Assembly: GCA_017545095.1 (NCBI GenBank)
Contig: JAFYCU010000171.1
Span: forward strand, 1 to 10,078
DNA: 10,078 bases
Origin: Muribaculaceae bacterium
GTDB taxonomy: Bacteria > Bacteroidota > Bacteroidia > Bacteroidales > Muribaculaceae
Direction of reading: 5' to 3'
Part shown: one piece after another, positions 1 to 7,620 of the stretch
Layout: each line of letters starts with the position of its first letter
How positions within the stretch are numbered: position 1 is the first letter of the stretch
Made by a program: the position numbers and the translations under genes
The notes under the pieces: generated by a model
The model's input: only the letters and a program-made list of their open reading frames with translations
The model's database searches: none
Told to the model about the DNA's origin: nothing

Positions 1-436
1 CACCTCGGATGTTGACCTGCCTGACTTCTTCGACATGAAATTTAAACTCGTAATTGCCACTGTCATCCATCAGTGTGACCACATCGCCCACTTCCGCACT
101 AAAGTCATAAAGCAGCTTCGTCGTCCCATCATCCCTAACCTGGAACACTTTCCCATCTTCATCATAAATTCCACAGTTGAATGCTGCAACCCCAGAGTTT
201 TCCCAATTGTAGCGATACATCTTTTTGCAGGGCAATCCCGCAATCACGGTGTCGCCCTTGATGAAGTATTCGTATAGGAAATCGGTCTCGAATTCTTCGT
301 AATCCGGCGGGAGAGGGTGTTGCTTGACCATGTGCCACACCTTCCCCTCCTCGGCAAAGGGGGCATAGTCGGCATTCTGCGCACCGCACCACAGCAGCGG
401 CAGCGTCGCCAATACAAAGCATAGAATCTTCTTCAT
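1..436 (-). CDS. Exported hypothetical protein, 3' end beyond the window
   Basis: Reading leftwards from the ATG at 436-434 there is an open frame of 145 codons with no stop before the window edge, so the C-terminus is missing. The protein begins MKKILCFVLATLPLLWCGAQ, a typical signal peptide; cleavage is likely near residues 18-20. Cys17 follows Trp, so a lipobox is not convincing. The mature part starts with a segment around residues 21-35 (ADYAPFAEEGKVWHM), followed by YFIKGDTVIAGLPCKKMY and a GIYDEDGKVFQ stretch. From memory, this layout (an 'EEGKxW' start, 'YxIKGDT' and 'EDGKVF') is common in exported proteins of unknown function in gut Bacteroidales. A TAACTTTG promoter element sits about 40 bases upstream. 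No enzyme motif is visible and I assign no function. Confidence 0.8.
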   Translation of the reverse strand, partial: MKKILCFVLATLPLLWCGAQNADYAPFAEEGKVWHMVKQHPLPPDYEEFETDFLYEYFIKGDTVIAGLPCKKMYRYNWENSGVAAFNCGIYDEDGKVFQVRDDGTTKLLYDFSAEVGDVVTLMDDSGNYEFKFHVEEVRQVNIRG

Positions 437-477
437 AAGCACATGTGATTTAAAAGTTAGACAATCAATCTATGCCG

Positions 478-743: not shown

Positions 744-1838
744 CTACAGACCCAGCATGATGTTGATGAGGGCGTTGATGTCGCTCACGTCAATCACATC
801 GTCGTCGGTGATGTAGGCCCGGCGGTCGTAGTTCTCGGCGCGGTCGAGCGTGAGGGTGATGTTGATAAGGATGTTCAGGTCGGTGATGTCGACGTTTCCA
901 TCCAGGTTGATGTCGCCAATCAGGTACTGCGGTGCCGACTCGGTGGTGACGGTGCACTGCGTGTCGGGCAGGTCGAGCTGCACGGCGGCAGCGGTGGTGG
1001 CCTTCACGCCGGTGACCTGGATCACACGCGGACCGCTGAAGTCGCTGGCAGCGGTGACGGGGAAGGTGACCACCGCTCCCGAGCTGCCCGCGAAAGGCTG
1101 GCTAGTGATGGATGCCGTCAGCACACGCACCGCACCATTCGACAGGCGTGCCGAGGCCAGCGTGTGGTCGGCAGCGCAACGGTTGGCAAGCGCAAACTGG
1201 TAGCTGTTGTCGGCATTCTGGCCTATGGTGAGCCCGTCGGGCAGGATGATGTCGGCCTGGATGGCGCTTAGCTGCGTGGGGTTGTCGAGCAGCAGAGCCA
1301 CCTCGATCGTCGCGCCGGGCTGGATGGTGAAGTCCTCGATGTAGAGTCGGTCTTCGCTGGGCACTTCGGTGGTGACAGTGCACTGCGTGTCGGGCAGACC
1401 GAGCTGCACGGCATCGTTGGTGGTGGCCTTCACACCGGTGACCTGAATCACACGCGGACCGCTGAAGTCGCTGGCAGCGGTGACGGGGAAGGTGACCACA
1501 GCACCAGTGTTGCCCGCAAAGGGCTGGCTGGTGATGGATGCCGTGAGCACACGCACGGCACCTGTCGACAGCCGCGCCGAGGCCAGCGTGTGGTTGGCAG
1601 CGCAACGGTCGGCAAGCGCAAACTGGTAGCTGTTGTCGGAATTCTGGCCTATGGAGAGTCCGTCGGGCATGACGATGTCGGCCTGGACGGCGCTGAGCGG
1701 CGTGGCGTTGTCGAGCAGCAGAGCCACCTGGCGCGTCTCGCCGGCACGGATGTTGAAGTCCTCAATGTACAGGCGGTCTTGCGCCACCATGGTGGCGCAC
1801 AGCAGCGCAAATATGAGGGTGATAAAATACTGTTTCAT
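744..1838 (-). CDS. Exported protein with two duplicated cohesin-like modules and a C-terminal dockerin
   Basis: This is a 364-residue product. I chose the ATG at 1838 because it gives a clear signal peptide (MKQYFITLIFALLCATMVAQ); a longer frame to 1922 would bury it. Residues 21-158 and 163-300 are two copies of one module (about 117 of 138 residues identical by hand count), each beginning DRLYIEDF and containing PDGL.IGQN, NSYQFAL and a G-VRVLTAS core. They resemble the cohesin/CBM-like beta-sandwich seen in Bacteroidales exported proteins. Residues 305-364 are a type I dockerin: the first calcium loop is intact (D309, N311, D313, D320), while the second (YITDDDVIDVSD, 342-353) has Tyr at position 1 and Asp in place of the usual Gly. 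It is the last gene of the three-gene set, 90 bases after the protease gene. Role inferred: extracellular adaptor or binding protein. The cohesin label rests on pattern only. Confidence 0.85.
   Translation of the reverse strand: MKQYFITLIFALLCATMVAQDRLYIEDFNIRAGETRQVALLLDNATPLSAVQADIVMPDGLSIGQNSDNSYQFALADRCAANHTLASARLSTGAVRVLTASITSQPFAGNTGAVVTFPVTAASDFSGPRVIQVTGVKATTNDAVQLGLPDTQCTVTTEVPSEDRLYIEDFTIQPGATIEVALLLDNPTQLSAIQADIILPDGLTIGQNADNSYQFALANRCAADHTLASARLSNGAVRVLTASITSQPFAGSSGAVVTFPVTAASDFSGPRVIQVTGVKATTAAAVQLDLPDTQCTVTTESAPQYLIGDINLDGNVDITDLNILINITLTLDRAENYDRRAYITDDDVIDVSDINALINIMLGL
939..1778 (-). repeat. Tandem in-gene duplication, two copies 426 bases apart
   Basis: The two module copies, 1365-1778 and 939-1352, encode the duplicated cohesin-like domain. 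DNA identity is very high in their second halves: 1021-1073 and 1447-1499 are identical over 53 bases. The low divergence, including silent sites, points to recent duplication or ongoing gene conversion. Confidence 0.85.
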
Positions 1839-1865
1839 GACGCACATGGGTTGAATTGTAGGCCT

Positions 1866-1918
1866 CCGAACCTCCTCAGCCGCCCGCAAGGTCGTGGGAC
1901 GGTTGAGGAGGCTTTCGG
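1866..1918 (-). other. Intercistronic hairpin between the protease and the double cohesin-like gene
   Basis: Positions 1871-1882 pair with 1900-1911 (12 pairs, one G-U). The stem extends outward through 1866-1870 and 1914-1918 across a two-base bulge. It begins about 10 bases after the stop codon at 1929. No T-run follows in the direction of transcription, so a strong terminator is unlikely; an mRNA-stabilising or attenuating structure is more likely. Confidence 0.55.
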
Positions 1919-1928
1919 CCATTGGTGG

Positions 1929-4900
1929 TTACTGACGAAGCACGCTGTCAATCACCTTGTTCAGGTCGGTGACGCTCACGCGGCCGTCGTGGTTCACGTC
2001 GGCGCGGTCAGCCCACTGCGTGGTGGTCTCTAGAATGAGGTTGATCACCGCATTGGCGTCGGCAGCATCAACGAAGCCATCGTTGTTCACGTCGTAGCCG
2101 GCCAGGAACTTCACGCGGGTGAGCGGCACATAGTCGGTAAGGGTGCCAATGGTGGCCACTGTGTTCTCGAAGGTGGTATATTTCACATATATCATCATGT
2201 CGCGTTCGCCGCCGGTGAAGTTCTCGGTGGGCGTCACATTCATCGTGTACACATGGCAGGGGTTGGTGGTGGTCTTCACCTTGCTGGCGTTCACGCCAAG
2301 CACGGTGTAGTTGGGCCAACGCGTTTCATCGTCGAAATTGTCGTTGAACGAAACCACCGGCACGCGGTTCCGCTTGGCCACGCCGTCACCCACATAGCCG
2401 TAGTAACCTTCATCATCGGCCATGGGCTTCAGCCCCTCGGGGAAGGTGAGCAAGAACTGAATGTTGGTGAAGTTGCCACCTTCGGGCATGGTGAGCGTGA
2501 GGGGCATCTCAATGAGCTTGCCCAAGTCGCAATACGACAGGGTGAGCTCTGGGCTGGCGATGGTGGAAGGCTCCGTCACCACAGCCTCGGTGGCCGTGGC
2601 GGTGAGCTGCACAGACACGGGCTGGCTCACGCCGCCGCCCGAAATCACAAGCTGTGCCGTGTGGCTGCCAGCCGCCGTGGGGGCATAGGTGATGGTGACC
2701 GTCTTGCCCTGCATGGCCGTGGAGGCGGTTATGCTGCTCTGCGACAGGCTGAACATCGAGGCGTTGTCGCCGCTCAGGGCCAGCGTGACAGGAGCAAGGA
2801 GGTTGGTGCCGCGCACAGTCACGGTCTGCGTGGTGGTGGCACCGGCCTCTATCGAGCCGAAGGCCACGGTGCTGCCCGCTGTGGGCGAGGTGATTGTCGG
2901 CACCACGGCCTCGGTGGCCGTGGCAGTGAGCTGCACGGTCGCGGGCTGGCTCACGCCGCCACCCGAAATCACGAGCTGTGCCGTGTGGCTGCCAGCCGCC
3001 GTGGGGGCATAGGTAATGGTGACCGTCTTGCCCTGCATGGCCGTAGAGGCGGTGATGCTGGTCTGCGACAGACTGAACATCGCGGCGTTGGCTCCACTCA
3101 GGGCCAGAGTGACGTTGCCCGTCAGGTTGGTGCCGCGCACGGTCACGGTCTGCGTGGTAGTGGCTCCAGCCTCTATCGAGCCGAAGCTCACCGTCGAGCC
3201 ATCGGCCGGCGAGGTGAAGGCCGGCACACTGGGCAGGGTCACTGTCTTGGTGTTGCTCCAGTCGCTCTCGGCGGCCTGCGTGGCGTTCACGGGCACGGCT
3301 TTGACCTTGAAAGTGTAGGTCTTCCCGGCCTCAAGTCCCGTCACGGTGTAGTTCTTGGCGGTGATGCCGGTCTGGTTGAGCACCGTGGTGGTGCCCTGGG
3401 TCACGTTGAGCGTGTAGGTGCAACTCACCGTGGCGGTGTGGGTCCACGAGGCGGTGAACGCGCTGGTGGTGACATCGGTGGCATCGGCCAGCACGGGAGC
3501 GGTGAGCGTGGGTGTGCTGCCTTTCATATACCACAACGAAGCGGTGCCATCGCTGTTGAGGGTAATCTCGGTCACAGGTTTGTTCACCGTGCCAGCGCCA
3601 CCGGTGCTCGAGGCCAGCGTGCCGTTGGCCTTCATGTTGGCCTTCATCGCCGGACTCGATGTGGTGGTGAAGGCGTGGTTGGTCTCACCAAACAGGTCTT
3701 TGTTCTCGTTGTTATCACTCAGCGAATTGTCGGCGGGGATAATGGTGGCCAGCTGGATGGCCTCATCGTTCACAGTGTTGGCGTCCCAGCGGCTGGCCAC
3801 GTAGGTGAAATGGGTGATGAGCACACCCTCGTCGGGGATGTAATAGTCCCAACCTTGTTTCTTGCGATTCTCAAGAATCCAGTATTCGTTCTCGTTCAGT
3901 GCCGTGATTTTGATGGCCTGATCGTTGGCAAGGGTCTTGCTGTTGAACACCGGCAGGGTGTACTGGGTGTTCTCCACCGGGGTGATTAAGTCGATCCAGC
4001 CCATGAAGTTCTTCTCATAGGCACTGTAGCCAATGGGGGTGTCGCCATCCACACTGCCGCCGTTGTAGCAGGCAGCGTCCATCAGGCTCCAGTTGCCCAT
4101 GCCATAATAGCCGTGGCTGTAGGTGGTCTCATAGAAGTCGGGCAGACCTAGGCAGTGCGAGAACTCGTGGCAGAAGGTGCCGATGCCGTCCAACGTTGAG
4201 CCATAGTCGCTGCTGCCCGAAATCTCGTTGAACACGGCAAACTTGTTGATGGTGGTGCCGTTGCGCGTCACCGCGCCACTGCCATCGCCGTAGCTGGCTG
4301 CATCCGACAGCGACCACTGGCACGGCCAAATCGCATTGGTGACGCTCGACTGGGCCTCGCCTACGCCGGCATACACCACGATGCACACATCGGCCTCACC
4401 GTCGCCATTGTTGTCATACTGGCTCCAATCGATGTTGTTGCCGGCCTTCTCGATGGCCTCGCCCACCATCTTGGCCACGCCCTTGTCGTAGCCGTTGGTG
4501 TCGTTGGCACCATAGGTGGAACGGTTGGAATTGAGCGTGTAGATGCCGTAGATATCGAATTGCGGTGTGTAAAGCCCGTTCGACTGGTCGGTGAAATACT
4601 GAAGCACGCTCTTGGCATTGGTCTTGTAGTGCGCCTCGAATTGAGTCTTGGTGTTCGACATCTTCTTGTCTTTGTACTGCACCAGGATGATGGGCACGCG
4701 GGGCGAGCCGTTGTTGGGCACCTGGGTGGCGCGGCGCAAGCCCTGCACGCGGCGAGCACGGGCACGCTGCGACGGGGCGGGAACAGACGAGAAAGCAAAC
4801 TTGCCCTCGTTTTGCGACAGGAAGGCTTTCTCGGCAGCCGAGCGCGATGCCAGGTCGTGGGCACGCTGCGTGGTGAGGGTGCCTTGCGACTGGTAATAGT

Positions 4901-5099
4901 AGTAGCCATCGGCTCCTTGCGCGATGGTCAGCCCATCGGCAGTGGCCAGGCTGTGGTGGAACTCATCGCCCAGCTGGCGCACCTGCAAGGTGGTGCCGTC
5001 GCCAAGCGCGATGGTGAACTGCCCCGGCTTGGCCGGTACAGCATTAGCTGAAATGCATAGCAACGTCAGTGCACATGCAAGAAGACCGAATCGTTTCAT
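1929..5099 (-). CDS. Secreted M6-like zinc metalloprotease with Fn3, Ig-like repeats, cohesin-like module and dockerin
   Basis: This is a 1056-residue product. The ATG at 5099 is chosen because MKRFGLLACALTLLCISANA is a good signal peptide; in-frame starts at 5120 and 5156 only add residues before it. Residues 21-120 resemble the propeptide of M6-family proteases (VPAKPG start, DG-YYYYQ). The catalytic domain spans about 133-525. It carries HEFSHCLGLPD (311-321), which gives zinc ligands His311 and His315, base Glu312 and a probable third ligand Asp321, followed by GYYGMGNWSLMD (330-341), a family signature after the zinc site. Then come Fn3 (about 531-622), two near-identical Ig-like repeats of 108 residues (626-733, 734-841; SPD-2/HYDIN-like by pattern), a cohesin-like module (about 849-1000) and a dockerin (1001-1056) with two intact calcium loops (D1003-D1014, D1034-D1045). 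It is the middle gene of the operon. Expected role: extracellular proteolysis of host or dietary protein; the substrate cannot be told. Confidence 0.9.
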   Translation of the reverse strand: MKRFGLLACALTLLCISANAVPAKPGQFTIALGDGTTLQVRQLGDEFHHSLATADGLTIAQGADGYYYYQSQGTLTTQRAHDLASRSAAEKAFLSQNEGKFAFSSVPAPSQRARARRVQGLRRATQVPNNGSPRVPIILVQYKDKKMSNTKTQFEAHYKTNAKSVLQYFTDQSNGLYTPQFDIYGIYTLNSNRSTYGANDTNGYDKGVAKMVGEAIEKAGNNIDWSQYDNNGDGEADVCIVVYAGVGEAQSSVTNAIWPCQWSLSDAASYGDGSGAVTRNGTTINKFAVFNEISGSSDYGSTLDGIGTFCHEFSHCLGLPDFYETTYSHGYYGMGNWSLMDAACYNGGSVDGDTPIGYSAYEKNFMGWIDLITPVENTQYTLPVFNSKTLANDQAIKITALNENEYWILENRKKQGWDYYIPDEGVLITHFTYVASRWDANTVNDEAIQLATIIPADNSLSDNNENKDLFGETNHAFTTTSSPAMKANMKANGTLASSTGGAGTVNKPVTEITLNSDGTASLWYMKGSTPTLTAPVLADATDVTTSAFTASWTHTATVSCTYTLNVTQGTTTVLNQTGITAKNYTVTGLEAGKTYTFKVKAVPVNATQAAESDWSNTKTVTLPSVPAFTSPADGSTVSFGSIEAGATTTQTVTVRGTNLTGNVTLALSGANAAMFSLSQTSITASTAMQGKTVTITYAPTAAGSHTAQLVISGGGVSQPATVQLTATATEAVVPTITSPTAGSTVAFGSIEAGATTTQTVTVRGTNLLAPVTLALSGDNASMFSLSQSSITASTAMQGKTVTITYAPTAAGSHTAQLVISGGGVSQPVSVQLTATATEAVVTEPSTIASPELTLSYCDLGKLIEMPLTLTMPEGGNFTNIQFLLTFPEGLKPMADDEGYYGYVGDGVAKRNRVPVVSFNDNFDDETRWPNYTVLGVNASKVKTTTNPCHVYTMNVTPTENFTGGERDMMIYVKYTTFENTVATIGTLTDYVPLTRVKFLAGYDVNNDGFVDAADANAVINLILETTTQWADRADVNHDGRVSVTDLNKVIDSVLRQ
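2577..3224 (-). repeat. Tandem in-gene repeat, two 324-base units
   Basis: Units 2901-3224 and 2577-2900 encode the two Ig-like repeats of the protease (about 95 of 108 residues identical by hand count). Long stretches are almost unchanged at the DNA level, for example around 2630-2710 and 2954-3034. Such near-identity favours unequal recombination, so copy number may vary between strains. Confidence 0.85.
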
Positions 5100-5145
5100 A
5101 GTGATATGTGATAAGATCATGTTGTCGATATATTGATTGTTATGT

Positions 5146-7035
5146 TCAGAGGGCAAATTTCGCGGTTTGTCCGTTCACGCGCACAATCACCACGCCCTGC
5201 AAGCCGCTCAGCGTGTTGCGGCCGGCCTTGATGGGCAGGGTGCGACTCATGCCGTTAGCCAGCACGATTTGCGTCATGGTGTCGGCATCGGCCTCCACCA
5301 CGATGTTGCCAGCCTCGGCGGTGATACGGGTGCCGGCGTGGGGCTTGGCCACTGCGGTGGGCTCGTCGCCACCCAGGGTGAGCGTCACGTTGTCCAGGCG
5401 GTGCAGCGTGGCATTGGTCTCGGCGGCCAGGATGCTTGTGATGGCGACCGTGCCGCTGCCCTCGCCGTCGATGACCAGCGTGAGCAGGTCGCCACACGAG
5501 CCAGCAAGGGGTGCGTTGGCCGGCGAGGCGGTGAGCACACGCCACACGCCGTCGCCACACTGAGCGGTGCCCACCATGTGGCTGCCGCTGGCGCGGTTAG
5601 TGAGCGTGGCCTGCTCCAGCGTCATGCCTTCGGGCAGGGTCAGGTCGAGCTGCAACGCGGTGAGCTGGGTGCTCCCGTCGAGGGCGATGGTCACCACCTG
5701 CTTGCCGCCCTGCGGTGTGCTGGCAGCGGTGAGCGTGAGCGCGTTCTCCACGGGGGCCTGCGCCACACGGCGAGGCGCACCCTCGTAGTGCACGGCAATG
5801 TCGGCAATGCCCACCAGGTCGCTCACGTTGATGTCGCCACTGCGGTCCACATCAGCGGCGATAAACACAAAAGGTTGCGGGTCGCGGTCGAGGATATAGT
5901 TGGCCGAGGCCACAAAGTCGGTCACGGTCACCGTGCCGTCGGCATTGGCATCGCCCATGATGTAGTCGAGCACGGTGAGCTGGCAGGTGGCACGCAGGGT
6001 GGCGTTGTCGGCCACGGCGGCGGTGATGGTCACTGTGCCGGGAGCGATGGCGGTGACCTGGCCGTTCTGGTCCACGGTGGCCACGGCGGCATTGCTCGTG
6101 CTCCACGCCACGGCGTTGTTGCTGGCGTTGGCGGGCTGCACGGTGGCCGTGAGGGTGAGCGTTTCACCTTTATATATAGAAGCCGTGGTCTTGCTGATGG
6201 TGATGCCGGTGGCCGGCTGGAGCACGGTCACCTCGCAGGCTCCGCTGGCTCCACTGCCGTCGGCGGCCGTGGCGGTGATGGTGGCAGTGCCGGGAGCCAC
6301 GGCGGTGACCAAGCCGTTGGCATCCACGGTGGCCACAGCGACATTGCTCGTGGTCCACTCCACCGACTGGTTATAGGCATTGGCGGGCTGCACGGTGGCC
6401 GTGAGCTGCTGGGTGGCATTGGGAGCCAGCGTGATGGTTCCGGGATCCACAGCCACGCCGCTCACCAGTACCTGCTGCAGCGTCACCGTGCAGGGGCGGT
6501 CGGTGCCCATCATGCCATCGTTGGTGTTGGCATCAATCAACTCAAGATTCTGCAAAGCCAGCGTGAGCGTCTGCGTAGCCATATCGGCATCGGCAGTGAT
6601 GGTGATGTCCATGATATGCAGGTTGTCGCTGGCGGGGATGCTCTGCGTCTTGGTGCTGTTGTAGAGCAAGATGCGGTAGCCACTATTCACCACACCCGAG
6701 TAAAGCGAGTATTGCGACGCTGCGGGCAAAGCCTGAAAGTCGCTGGCGAGGTCCACACCATCGATGGTGAGTCCGTCGGGCGCGGCCACATCGAGCTGAA
6801 GCATCCACACGGGCACCGTGGTGTGGAGATACACCGGAATGGTCTGGGTGTCGCCCGAAGTGATGGTGAAGTCGTCGATGTAGAGGTAGTTCTGCTGGGT
6901 CTCACCCGCTTTTTTCACGAAGTTGACCCCTTCAACACGCAGCCGCTCGCGGTTCACCCGCAGCGGCGACGACCATGCTCCAGCAGCGAGACACACGGCC
7001 AGAAGCAGGAAGAGTGATTGACGTTTTGATAACAT
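5146..7035 (-). CDS. Exported cohesin-like / BIG2 / dockerin protein with T9SS-like C-terminus
   Basis: This is a 629-residue product. The ATG at 7035 is chosen because MLSKRQSLFLLLAVCLAAGA makes a signal peptide; a GTG at 7077 would add 14 unlikely residues. Modules in order: a first cohesin-like domain (about 50-187, opening LYIDDFTITSGDT and matching the LYIEDF modules of the last gene in the set); two BIG2 Ig-like domains (about 190-272 and 273-356, with W-TSN-AVATVD and APGT-TITA motifs); a dockerin (358-416) with two calcium loops (D362, N364, D366, D373 and D395, D397, D401, D406); a second cohesin-like domain (about 431-555, with VWRVLTAS); and a tail (566-629, ITAEAGNIVVEA to VVIVRVNGQTAKFAL) resembling a type A T9SS sorting domain. 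It is the first gene after the promoter. Inferred role: surface-attached scaffold or binding protein. No catalytic motif is seen. An internal dockerin is unusual. Confidence 0.85.
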   Translation of the reverse strand: MLSKRQSLFLLLAVCLAAGAWSSPLRVNRERLRVEGVNFVKKAGETQQNYLYIDDFTITSGDTQTIPVYLHTTVPVWMLQLDVAAPDGLTIDGVDLASDFQALPAASQYSLYSGVVNSGYRILLYNSTKTQSIPASDNLHIMDITITADADMATQTLTLALQNLELIDANTNDGMMGTDRPCTVTLQQVLVSGVAVDPGTITLAPNATQQLTATVQPANAYNQSVEWTTSNVAVATVDANGLVTAVAPGTATITATAADGSGASGACEVTVLQPATGITISKTTASIYKGETLTLTATVQPANASNNAVAWSTSNAAVATVDQNGQVTAIAPGTVTITAAVADNATLRATCQLTVLDYIMGDANADGTVTVTDFVASANYILDRDPQPFVFIAADVDRSGDINVSDLVGIADIAVHYEGAPRRVAQAPVENALTLTAASTPQGGKQVVTIALDGSTQLTALQLDLTLPEGMTLEQATLTNRASGSHMVGTAQCGDGVWRVLTASPANAPLAGSCGDLLTLVIDGEGSGTVAITSILAAETNATLHRLDNVTLTLGGDEPTAVAKPHAGTRITAEAGNIVVEADADTMTQIVLANGMSRTLPIKAGRNTLSGLQGVVIVRVNGQTAKFAL

Positions 7036-7101
7036 AATGCTATAGGTGTTATTTGATTTGTCGAATCCTATCGCCACACCCTTTGTGACGATTCAGAGCC
7101 G

Positions 7102-7133
7102 CAAAGTTACACCTTCATTTTTAAATATGCAAA
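7102..7133 (-). promoter_or_regulatory. Promoter of the three-gene dockerin operon
   Basis: On the minus strand TTTG (7130-7133), exactly 20 bases, then TAACTTTG (7102-7109): a full match to the Bacteroidetes primary sigma promoter. The transcript start would be near 7095, about 60 bases before the ATG at 7035. No comparable element lies in the 46- and 90-base gaps further down, so this promoter probably serves all three genes. Confidence 0.75.
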
Positions 7134-7588: not shown

Positions 7589-7620
7589 AGTCCTGTAGCG
7601 CCGCGCGGCGCTACAGGACT
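7589..7620. repeat. Perfect 32-base palindrome, REP-like
   Basis: The two 16-base halves are exact reverse complements (AGTCCTGTAGCGCCGC and its complement) with no spacer. It shares TCCTGTAG, one variable base, then GCCGC with the element at 572-585, so both belong to one family of palindromic intergenic repeats. It lies 98 bases upstream of the ribosomal-protein operon promoter, so it is not clearly a terminator of either neighbour. Confidence 0.7.

Follow-up and report, generated by a model that had tools for sequence, protein, structure and literature searches.

Scaffold genes and a metalloprotease passenger of a probable surface cohesin-dockerin system in Bacteroidales

The window analysed here is a stretch of 10,078 nucleotides from a Muribaculaceae bacterium (assembly GCA_017545095.1, contig JAFYCU010000171.1) that carries on its minus strand, in the order C, B, A and separated by 46 and 90 bases, three genes for proteins with dockerin and cohesin-like modules. 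The locus probably encodes components of the scaffold of a surface cohesin-dockerin system in Bacteroidales, together with one passenger. What carries this reading is the cohesin fold of A, the dockerins, the synteny of C and A in relatives, the large number of dockerins per genome and an exchange, on C10 proteases, between dockerins and tails like those of the type IX secretion system (T9SS). An earlier note, made from the sequence alone, had described three adjacent dockerin and cohesin-like genes, one of them for an M6 protease, which we confirmed, and had proposed that the three products form a small complex outside the cell. An extracellular docking complex is indeed the best reading, but a closed complex of C, B and A was rejected, since relatives have no gene between C and A, keep the C-A pair and carry dockerins genome-wide. 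The features of the three genes are as follows.

744..1838, minus strand: gene A, signal peptide, two cohesins, C-terminal dockerin
1401..1778, minus strand: cohesin module A1 (residues 21-146), cohesin fold
972..1352, minus strand: cohesin module A2 (residues 163-289), cohesin fold
753..923, minus strand: C-terminal dockerin of A (residues 306-362), Pfam 14.5 bits, under the cut-off
5146..7035, minus strand: gene C, signal peptide, cohesin C1, two Big_2 domains, internal dockerin, cohesin C2, T9SS-like tail
6514..6891, minus strand: cohesin-like module C1 (residues 49-174), 77.3 bits (model built from homologues alone)
6001..6465, minus strand: two Big_2 Ig-like domains (approximate limits), PF02368 130 bits in two stretches
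5791..5961, minus strand: internal dockerin of C (residues 359-415), of a second class by class consensus, PF00404 26.9 bits
5398..5745, minus strand: cohesin-like module C2 (residues 431-546), 67.9 bits
5149..5397, minus strand: T9SS type-A-like C-terminal tail of C, 54.8 bits, E 3.7e-16
1929..5099, minus strand: gene B, M6 metalloprotease, fn3, two choice-of-anchor-D domains, cohesin-like module, C-terminal dockerin
3810..4688, minus strand: M6 metalloprotease domain, TIGR03296 184.1 bits (cut-off 110.8), PF05547 68 bits
3255..3491, minus strand: fibronectin type III domain of B, PF00041 35.7 bits
2592..3200, minus strand: two choice-of-anchor-D domains of B (approximate limits), NF012200 61 bits in two stretches
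2148..2528, minus strand: cohesin-like module B1 (residues 858-984), divergent subtype, 15.7 bits
1938..2102, minus strand: C-terminal dockerin of B (residues 1000-1054), PF00404 40.0 bits

Cohesin and dockerin modules

Protein A belongs to the cohesin fold family, with cohesins ranking well above other folds, and it would be an adaptor scaffoldin. The cohesin fold that had been proposed for the modules is clear for A, weak for B, whose module ties with a pilin, and assigned by sequence only for C. The Pfam cohesin model (PF00963, cut-off 24.1 bits) gave no match to any of the three proteins at E up to 0.1; it was found on the homologues P0032, P0035 and P0036 and above its cut-off in 32 of 48 related genomes, some of its matches coinciding with A-family cohesin matches (e.g. 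in G006:C10 and G003:C67).

The dockerins seen by the earlier note are real. With the dockerin type I model PF00404 (curated cut-off 22.9 bits) those of B and C lie above the cut-off, and that of A, with a degenerate second calcium loop, lies below it and scores 63.5 bits in an iterated model built with the A dockerin among its members. Several cohesin-like homologues (P0002-P0006, P0012, P0014-P0016 and P0023) end, after a Big_2-type stretch, in just one calcium loop of some 26 residues, which amounts to half a dockerin.

Two classes of dockerin could be distinguished: the C-terminal dockerins of dockerin-tagged cargo proteins (n=76) and of cohesin proteins (n=46) share one consensus, of the NISDVTaLIN type, and the internal dockerins of C-like proteins (n=73) have a different one, of the VTVTDVV.TA type. 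The cohesins fall by position into three groups: A-like modules, modules preceding the internal dockerin and modules following it. In these groups 67 of 82, 46 of 51 and 66 of 68 modules, respectively, had their nearest neighbour from another locus within their own group; the nearest neighbour of C1 of the window belongs to another group. This is reminiscent of the type I and type II cohesin-dockerin pairs, and which cohesin would bind which dockerin is a prediction.

In B, the HExxH motif reads HEFSH and the protein is a member of the M6 family. It looks like one docked passenger, held via its C-terminal dockerin. The subtype of module B1 is also present on C10 proteases, leucine-rich repeat (LRR) proteins and Big_2 proteins, and the combination of a B-type module with a dockerin, common to the M6 protease and the C10 proteases P0165, P0166 and P0169, has the appearance of an exchangeable C-terminal cassette.

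The conserved C-A pair and the tail of C

A scan of genome contigs for A-like genes gave 68 loci from Muribaculaceae, Prevotellaceae, Bacteroidales and similar, many of them from ruminants. A cohesin-bearing open reading frame (ORF) lay directly upstream on the same strand for 43 of 49 A-like ORFs (within 200 bases in 42 of the 43). This count refers to loci found with the A family, some of them from the same genome, and not to loci L074-L093, which were picked by eye for neighbouring matches. All 43 upstream proteins contain an internal dockerin, a C-like feature, and none of the 43 loci has an ORF of at least 150 residues between the two genes, for which reason B looks like a local addition. 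The earlier note had asked for conservation of the trio in relatives; the trio is not kept, and the conserved unit is the C-A pair.

The A-like proteins have one to six cohesins and a C-terminal dockerin, with a single cohesin in 52 of 72 ORFs. Two of 914 residues, in G006 and G105, have six, so that a polycohesin scaffoldin together with many dockerins (89 in G006 and at least 40 in G105) was found in relatives only.

Most C-like proteins carry a T9SS-like sorting tail at the C terminus. A joint profile, for which half of the tails served as training set and the other half as test set, matched 67 of 72 complete C-like proteins, compared to none of 80 dockerin cargo ORFs and 12 of 645 in the background; the tails of C-like proteins and of C10 proteases from dockerin-poor genomes were trained together, and these groups are not independent. 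Among the three proteins of the window it matched only C. In a comparison of C-like with C10 tails, hhalign gave a probability of 97.1 (E 7.8e-11), as against 0.0 to 3.2 in five control comparisons, so the C-like tail family is homologous to T9SS-like tails; C of the window belongs to this family, its 54.8 bits coming from a C-like tail model trained without the window sequence. With its cohesins and this tail, C would be an anchoring scaffoldin. A profile from C10 tails alone left the tail of C unmatched, although it matched 28 of 72 C-like tails. We relied on profiles because a loose tail pattern was unspecific, being found in 67 of 72 C-like proteins and 53 of 56 C10 proteases but also in 59 of 80 dockerin cargo ORFs, 21 of 41 dockerin-ended C10 proteases and 253 of 645 background ORFs.

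Dockerin cargo and the exchange with T9SS-like tails

Cargo was sampled in genomes G018 and G159, from 18 of 20 regions around strong matches, and comprised 32 of 43 complete ORFs (near copies dropped). The domains on these 32 were BspA-type LRR (LRR_5, 6), C10 (3), CotH (3), subtilase (S8, 2), NAGPA (2) and Omp28 (2), with GH53, GHL10, amylase and a Porphyromonas-type peptidyl-arginine deiminase as single cases; plant-fibre glycosidases were not the chief cargo among these 32 proteins from two genomes. By a simple pattern, a signal-peptide-like start was present in 79 of 80 complete cargo ORFs and, among background ORFs in any frame, in 195 of 645. Dockerin-tagged genes also occur side by side, with a run of seven in G159:C3:28000-44000 and one of five, including a subtilase-like one, in G018:C33:222000-238500.

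The C10 proteases were compared between 30 dockerin-rich genomes (12 of them drawn from the family sample, the other 18 from the A-like set) and 27 poor ones, the latter taken in handle order with 0 or 1 dockerin and excluding cohesin-matching genomes except G073; G088, G098 and G101 were searched yet excluded from the test. C10 matches numbered 3 to 29 per rich genome (median 15) and 1 to 6 per poor one (median 2). The proteases of the rich genomes came from 70 loci (part of the matches) and those of the poor genomes from matches of at least 100 bits except G073:C53, weaker ones being mostly omitted; we removed ORFs lacking a stop codon within their locus and proteins duplicated over the last 150 residues. 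A C-terminal dockerin was found on 41 of 49 complete C10 proteases from rich genomes and on 0 of 56 from poor ones (p 2e-21, ignoring relatedness), and the held-out profile found a T9SS-like tail on 46 of the 56, on all 8 dockerin-less proteases from rich genomes (three of which are the three C10 proteases of G049) and on none of the 41 dockerin-ended ones. The curated T9SS model TIGR04183 was applied to 50 of the 56 proteases from poor genomes and to all 8 dockerin-less ones from rich genomes, and 25 of these 58 had a match at E up to 0.01. This distribution indicates that dockerin and T9SS-like tail are alternatives at the same place. Since the dockerin of the C10 proteases sits where dockerin-poor relatives have the tail, it seems to replace the T9SS tail on cargo and to take over the surface delivery of the enzyme.

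Dockerins and cohesins across genomes

In the 48 genomes chosen for presence of A-like loci we found 1 to at least 107 Dockerin_1 matches per genome, with at least 49 in 38 of them; dockerin tallies are lower bounds at the high end, as up to about 105, 40 or 21 candidates were scored depending on the set. Of 148 genomes of the Muribaculaceae, the family of G018, 12 had at least 31 dockerins, 43 had 1 to 9 and 93 had none. Cohesin-like modules were present in 11 of the 12 dockerin-rich versus 30 of the 136 other genomes (Fisher p 2e-6) and in 33 of the 55 dockerin-bearing versus 8 of the 93 dockerin-free genomes (p 2e-11), both tests ignoring relatedness. In an order-wide sample of 294 genomes, 26 of the 27 with an A-family cohesin also had a dockerin, and of the 15 genomes with at least 10 scored dockerins 7 had an A-family cohesin and the remaining 8 had between 11 and 34 Pfam cohesins. 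In other Bacteroidales (G371:C35:376723-387447, G233:C85 and G192:C25), several to at least nine cohesins are joined in single ORFs of roughly 1200 to 5600 residues, beside numerous dockerins. The T9SS translocon protein SprA was found in 58 of 60 genomes, and the number of T9SS tails counted with the curated model was lower in dockerin-rich genomes (median 9.5 versus 16, p 5e-4), with wide overlap.

Proposed function and alternative explanations

From these findings we infer binding, partner choice and surface location. C would be exported by the T9SS and held at the cell surface as an anchor, A would plug into C through its dockerin and add cohesin sockets of its own, and B and further dockerin proteins would fill the sockets. 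Since unrelated secreted proteins elsewhere in such genomes bear C-terminal dockerins of this class too, C and A look like scaffold components of a genome-wide system and B like a passenger. A more speculative idea, which we regard as possible but rather doubtful, is that enzymes shed their own T9SS tail but retain a dockerin, bind a small number of tail-bearing cohesin scaffoldins in the periplasm and cross the T9SS translocon folded, as preassembled complexes; if true, a single export signal would serve many cargos.

Several observations speak against the proposed docking system. C went unmatched by TIGR04183 at E up to 0.1 (on eight homologues this model gave two matches, at 14-15 bits and under its cut-off of 23), and we know of no route over the outer membrane for tail-less dockerin cargo. 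Module B1 is only weakly cohesin-like: in the structure comparison a cohesin was the best row, tied with a pilin, and Foldseek alone put other folds on top and a cohesin at rank 10. Some homologues have dockerins with one calcium loop. The C-A pair was lacking for 6 of 49 A-like ORFs (one at a contig edge), 10 of the 48 genomes with A-like loci had merely 1 to 28 dockerins, 8 of the 93 dockerin-free family genomes had cohesin-like modules, and G049, with 31 dockerins, showed no cohesin with either model. The genomes are mostly metagenome-assembled genomes (MAGs), and misbinning may add noise; misbinned Firmicutes contigs are an unlikely source of the scaffolds, because cohesin, dockerin and T9SS-like tail are joined in one ORF.

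One alternative, offered in part by the earlier note, is that the dockerin folds onto the adjacent cohesin-like module and only stabilises it, with no intermolecular partner. The shortness of the linker that joins the dockerin to its module in A and B, the B-type module beside the C-terminal dockerin in the C10 proteases P0165, P0166 and P0169 and the Big_2 protein P0167, and the one-loop dockerins would suit such a cap. We consider it unlikely, as 80 complete dockerin-ended ORFs in the retrieved loci, and 40 of the 41 dockerin-ended C10 proteases, have no detectable cohesin, and the linkage of C and A is left unexplained. It is similarly improbable that the dockerin is itself a sorting signal for the T9SS or another exporter and the cohesin-like modules are unrelated sandwiches: the dockerin does take the position of the tail in dockerin-poor relatives, and tail profiles do not match the dockerin cargo, but A has the cohesin fold, both modules co-occur across genomes and internal dockerins are found in proteins that also bear a T9SS-like tail. 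Least probable, and very much so, is that A, B and C are ordinary adhesin-like surface proteins whose modules are carbohydrate-binding or structural beta-sandwiches. In line with that idea are the lack of Pfam cohesin matches in the three proteins, the tie of B1 with a pilin domain and the presence in B and C of Big_2, fn3 and anchor-D domains, which are frequent in surface proteins; the rank of cohesins for A, the Pfam cohesins on the three homologues named above and those in related genomes, partly at the same sites, argue against it.

Surroundings of the gene cluster

The genes yceD and fabH lie divergent to the C-B-A trio, with between them an ORF that we tentatively read as rpmF. The following element precedes gene C.

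7098..7109, minus strand: promoter-like TAACTTTGCGGC, upstream of gene C

It resembles the Bacteroidetes -7 box. An identical 12-base copy is found at 474-485, ahead of a gene at 2-442 (minus strand) for a secreted-looking protein that is truncated by the window end and has no Pfam or NCBIfam match; the repeat is weak, as at least two matches with up to two mismatches occurred in 41 of 200 shuffles. GC-rich palindromes at 570-700 and 7589-7620, with similar CTGTAG ends and, partly by eye, resembling repetitive extragenic palindromic elements, flank the gene cluster.

Relation to known systems

The proposed system is like the clostridial and ruminococcal cellulosome in having cohesins and dockerins, a multi-cohesin adaptor with a dockerin, a potential tail-bearing anchor, many dockerin-tagged secreted proteins and more than one dockerin class. 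Cellulosome anchors use S-layer homology (SLH) domains or sortase; here the host is a Gram-negative Bacteroidales and the anchor has a T9SS-like tail. The sampled cargo also differs, being chiefly LRR proteins, peptidases and others with few glycosidases, and no carbohydrate-binding module, as borne by cellulosomal scaffoldins, was among the Pfam matches of A, B and C. A classical cellulosome was rejected because of the differences in cargo and tail. Like T9SS type A cargo (TIGR04183), C-like proteins have tails that align with the T9SS-kind tails of C10 proteases. The cohesin-dockerin system of Archaeoglobus fulgidus (2xdh) is archaeal and without a T9SS tail.

The Limousia mucinolysome is likewise a cellulosome-like gut system beyond cellulose, but belongs to Firmicutes, carries mucin-degrading carbohydrate-active enzymes and was detected by the Pfam cohesin model, which misses A, B and C (PMC12997984). 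The same 2026 paper counts 78 Bacteroidetes MAGs with both modules and states that cellulosome systems have been described in Firmicutes only. Scaffoldin-like proteins of anaerobic methanotrophic (ANME) lineages are from Archaea, commonly have transporter substrate-binding proteins as cargo and lack a T9SS tail (PMC9012536). In T9SS cargo of human pathogens an own C-terminal domain is said to be invariably present (PMC8545088), unlike here, where the cargo has the dockerin and the cohesin protein the tail.

For Bacteroidetes, the role of dockerins in rumen polysaccharide utilisation loci was termed undefined as yet (PMC7480376). Dockerins were abundant in three Bacteroidetes bins from camel rumen, one having 11 dockerins and no cohesin (PMC6071333), and one genome had neither module, in line with other Bacteroidetes-affiliated genomes according to its authors (PMC5831590). 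Surveys with Pfam models reported dockerins only in 9 of 25 rumen MAGs (PMC9763041) and, in cockroach cells, Bacteroidales dockerins with a cohesin in one Christensenellales genome (PMC10266427). The available parts of PMC12871809, PMC12484212 and PMC8865330 contain nothing on a Bacteroidales cohesin-dockerin system, and among the open-licence papers listed by our searches no title or abstract opening reports a T9SS-linked cohesin scaffold. The proposed system would be a variant of the cohesin-dockerin complex in Bacteroidales that is apparently tied to the T9SS.

With it, the dockerins of Bacteroidetes loci gain a candidate partner that the Pfam model mostly misses. Added to this are two scaffold genes that stay paired in relatives, cargo in which LRR proteins and peptidases are frequent and a switch between dockerins and T9SS-like tails, and the concrete question is raised by which route tail-less cargo would pass the outer membrane.

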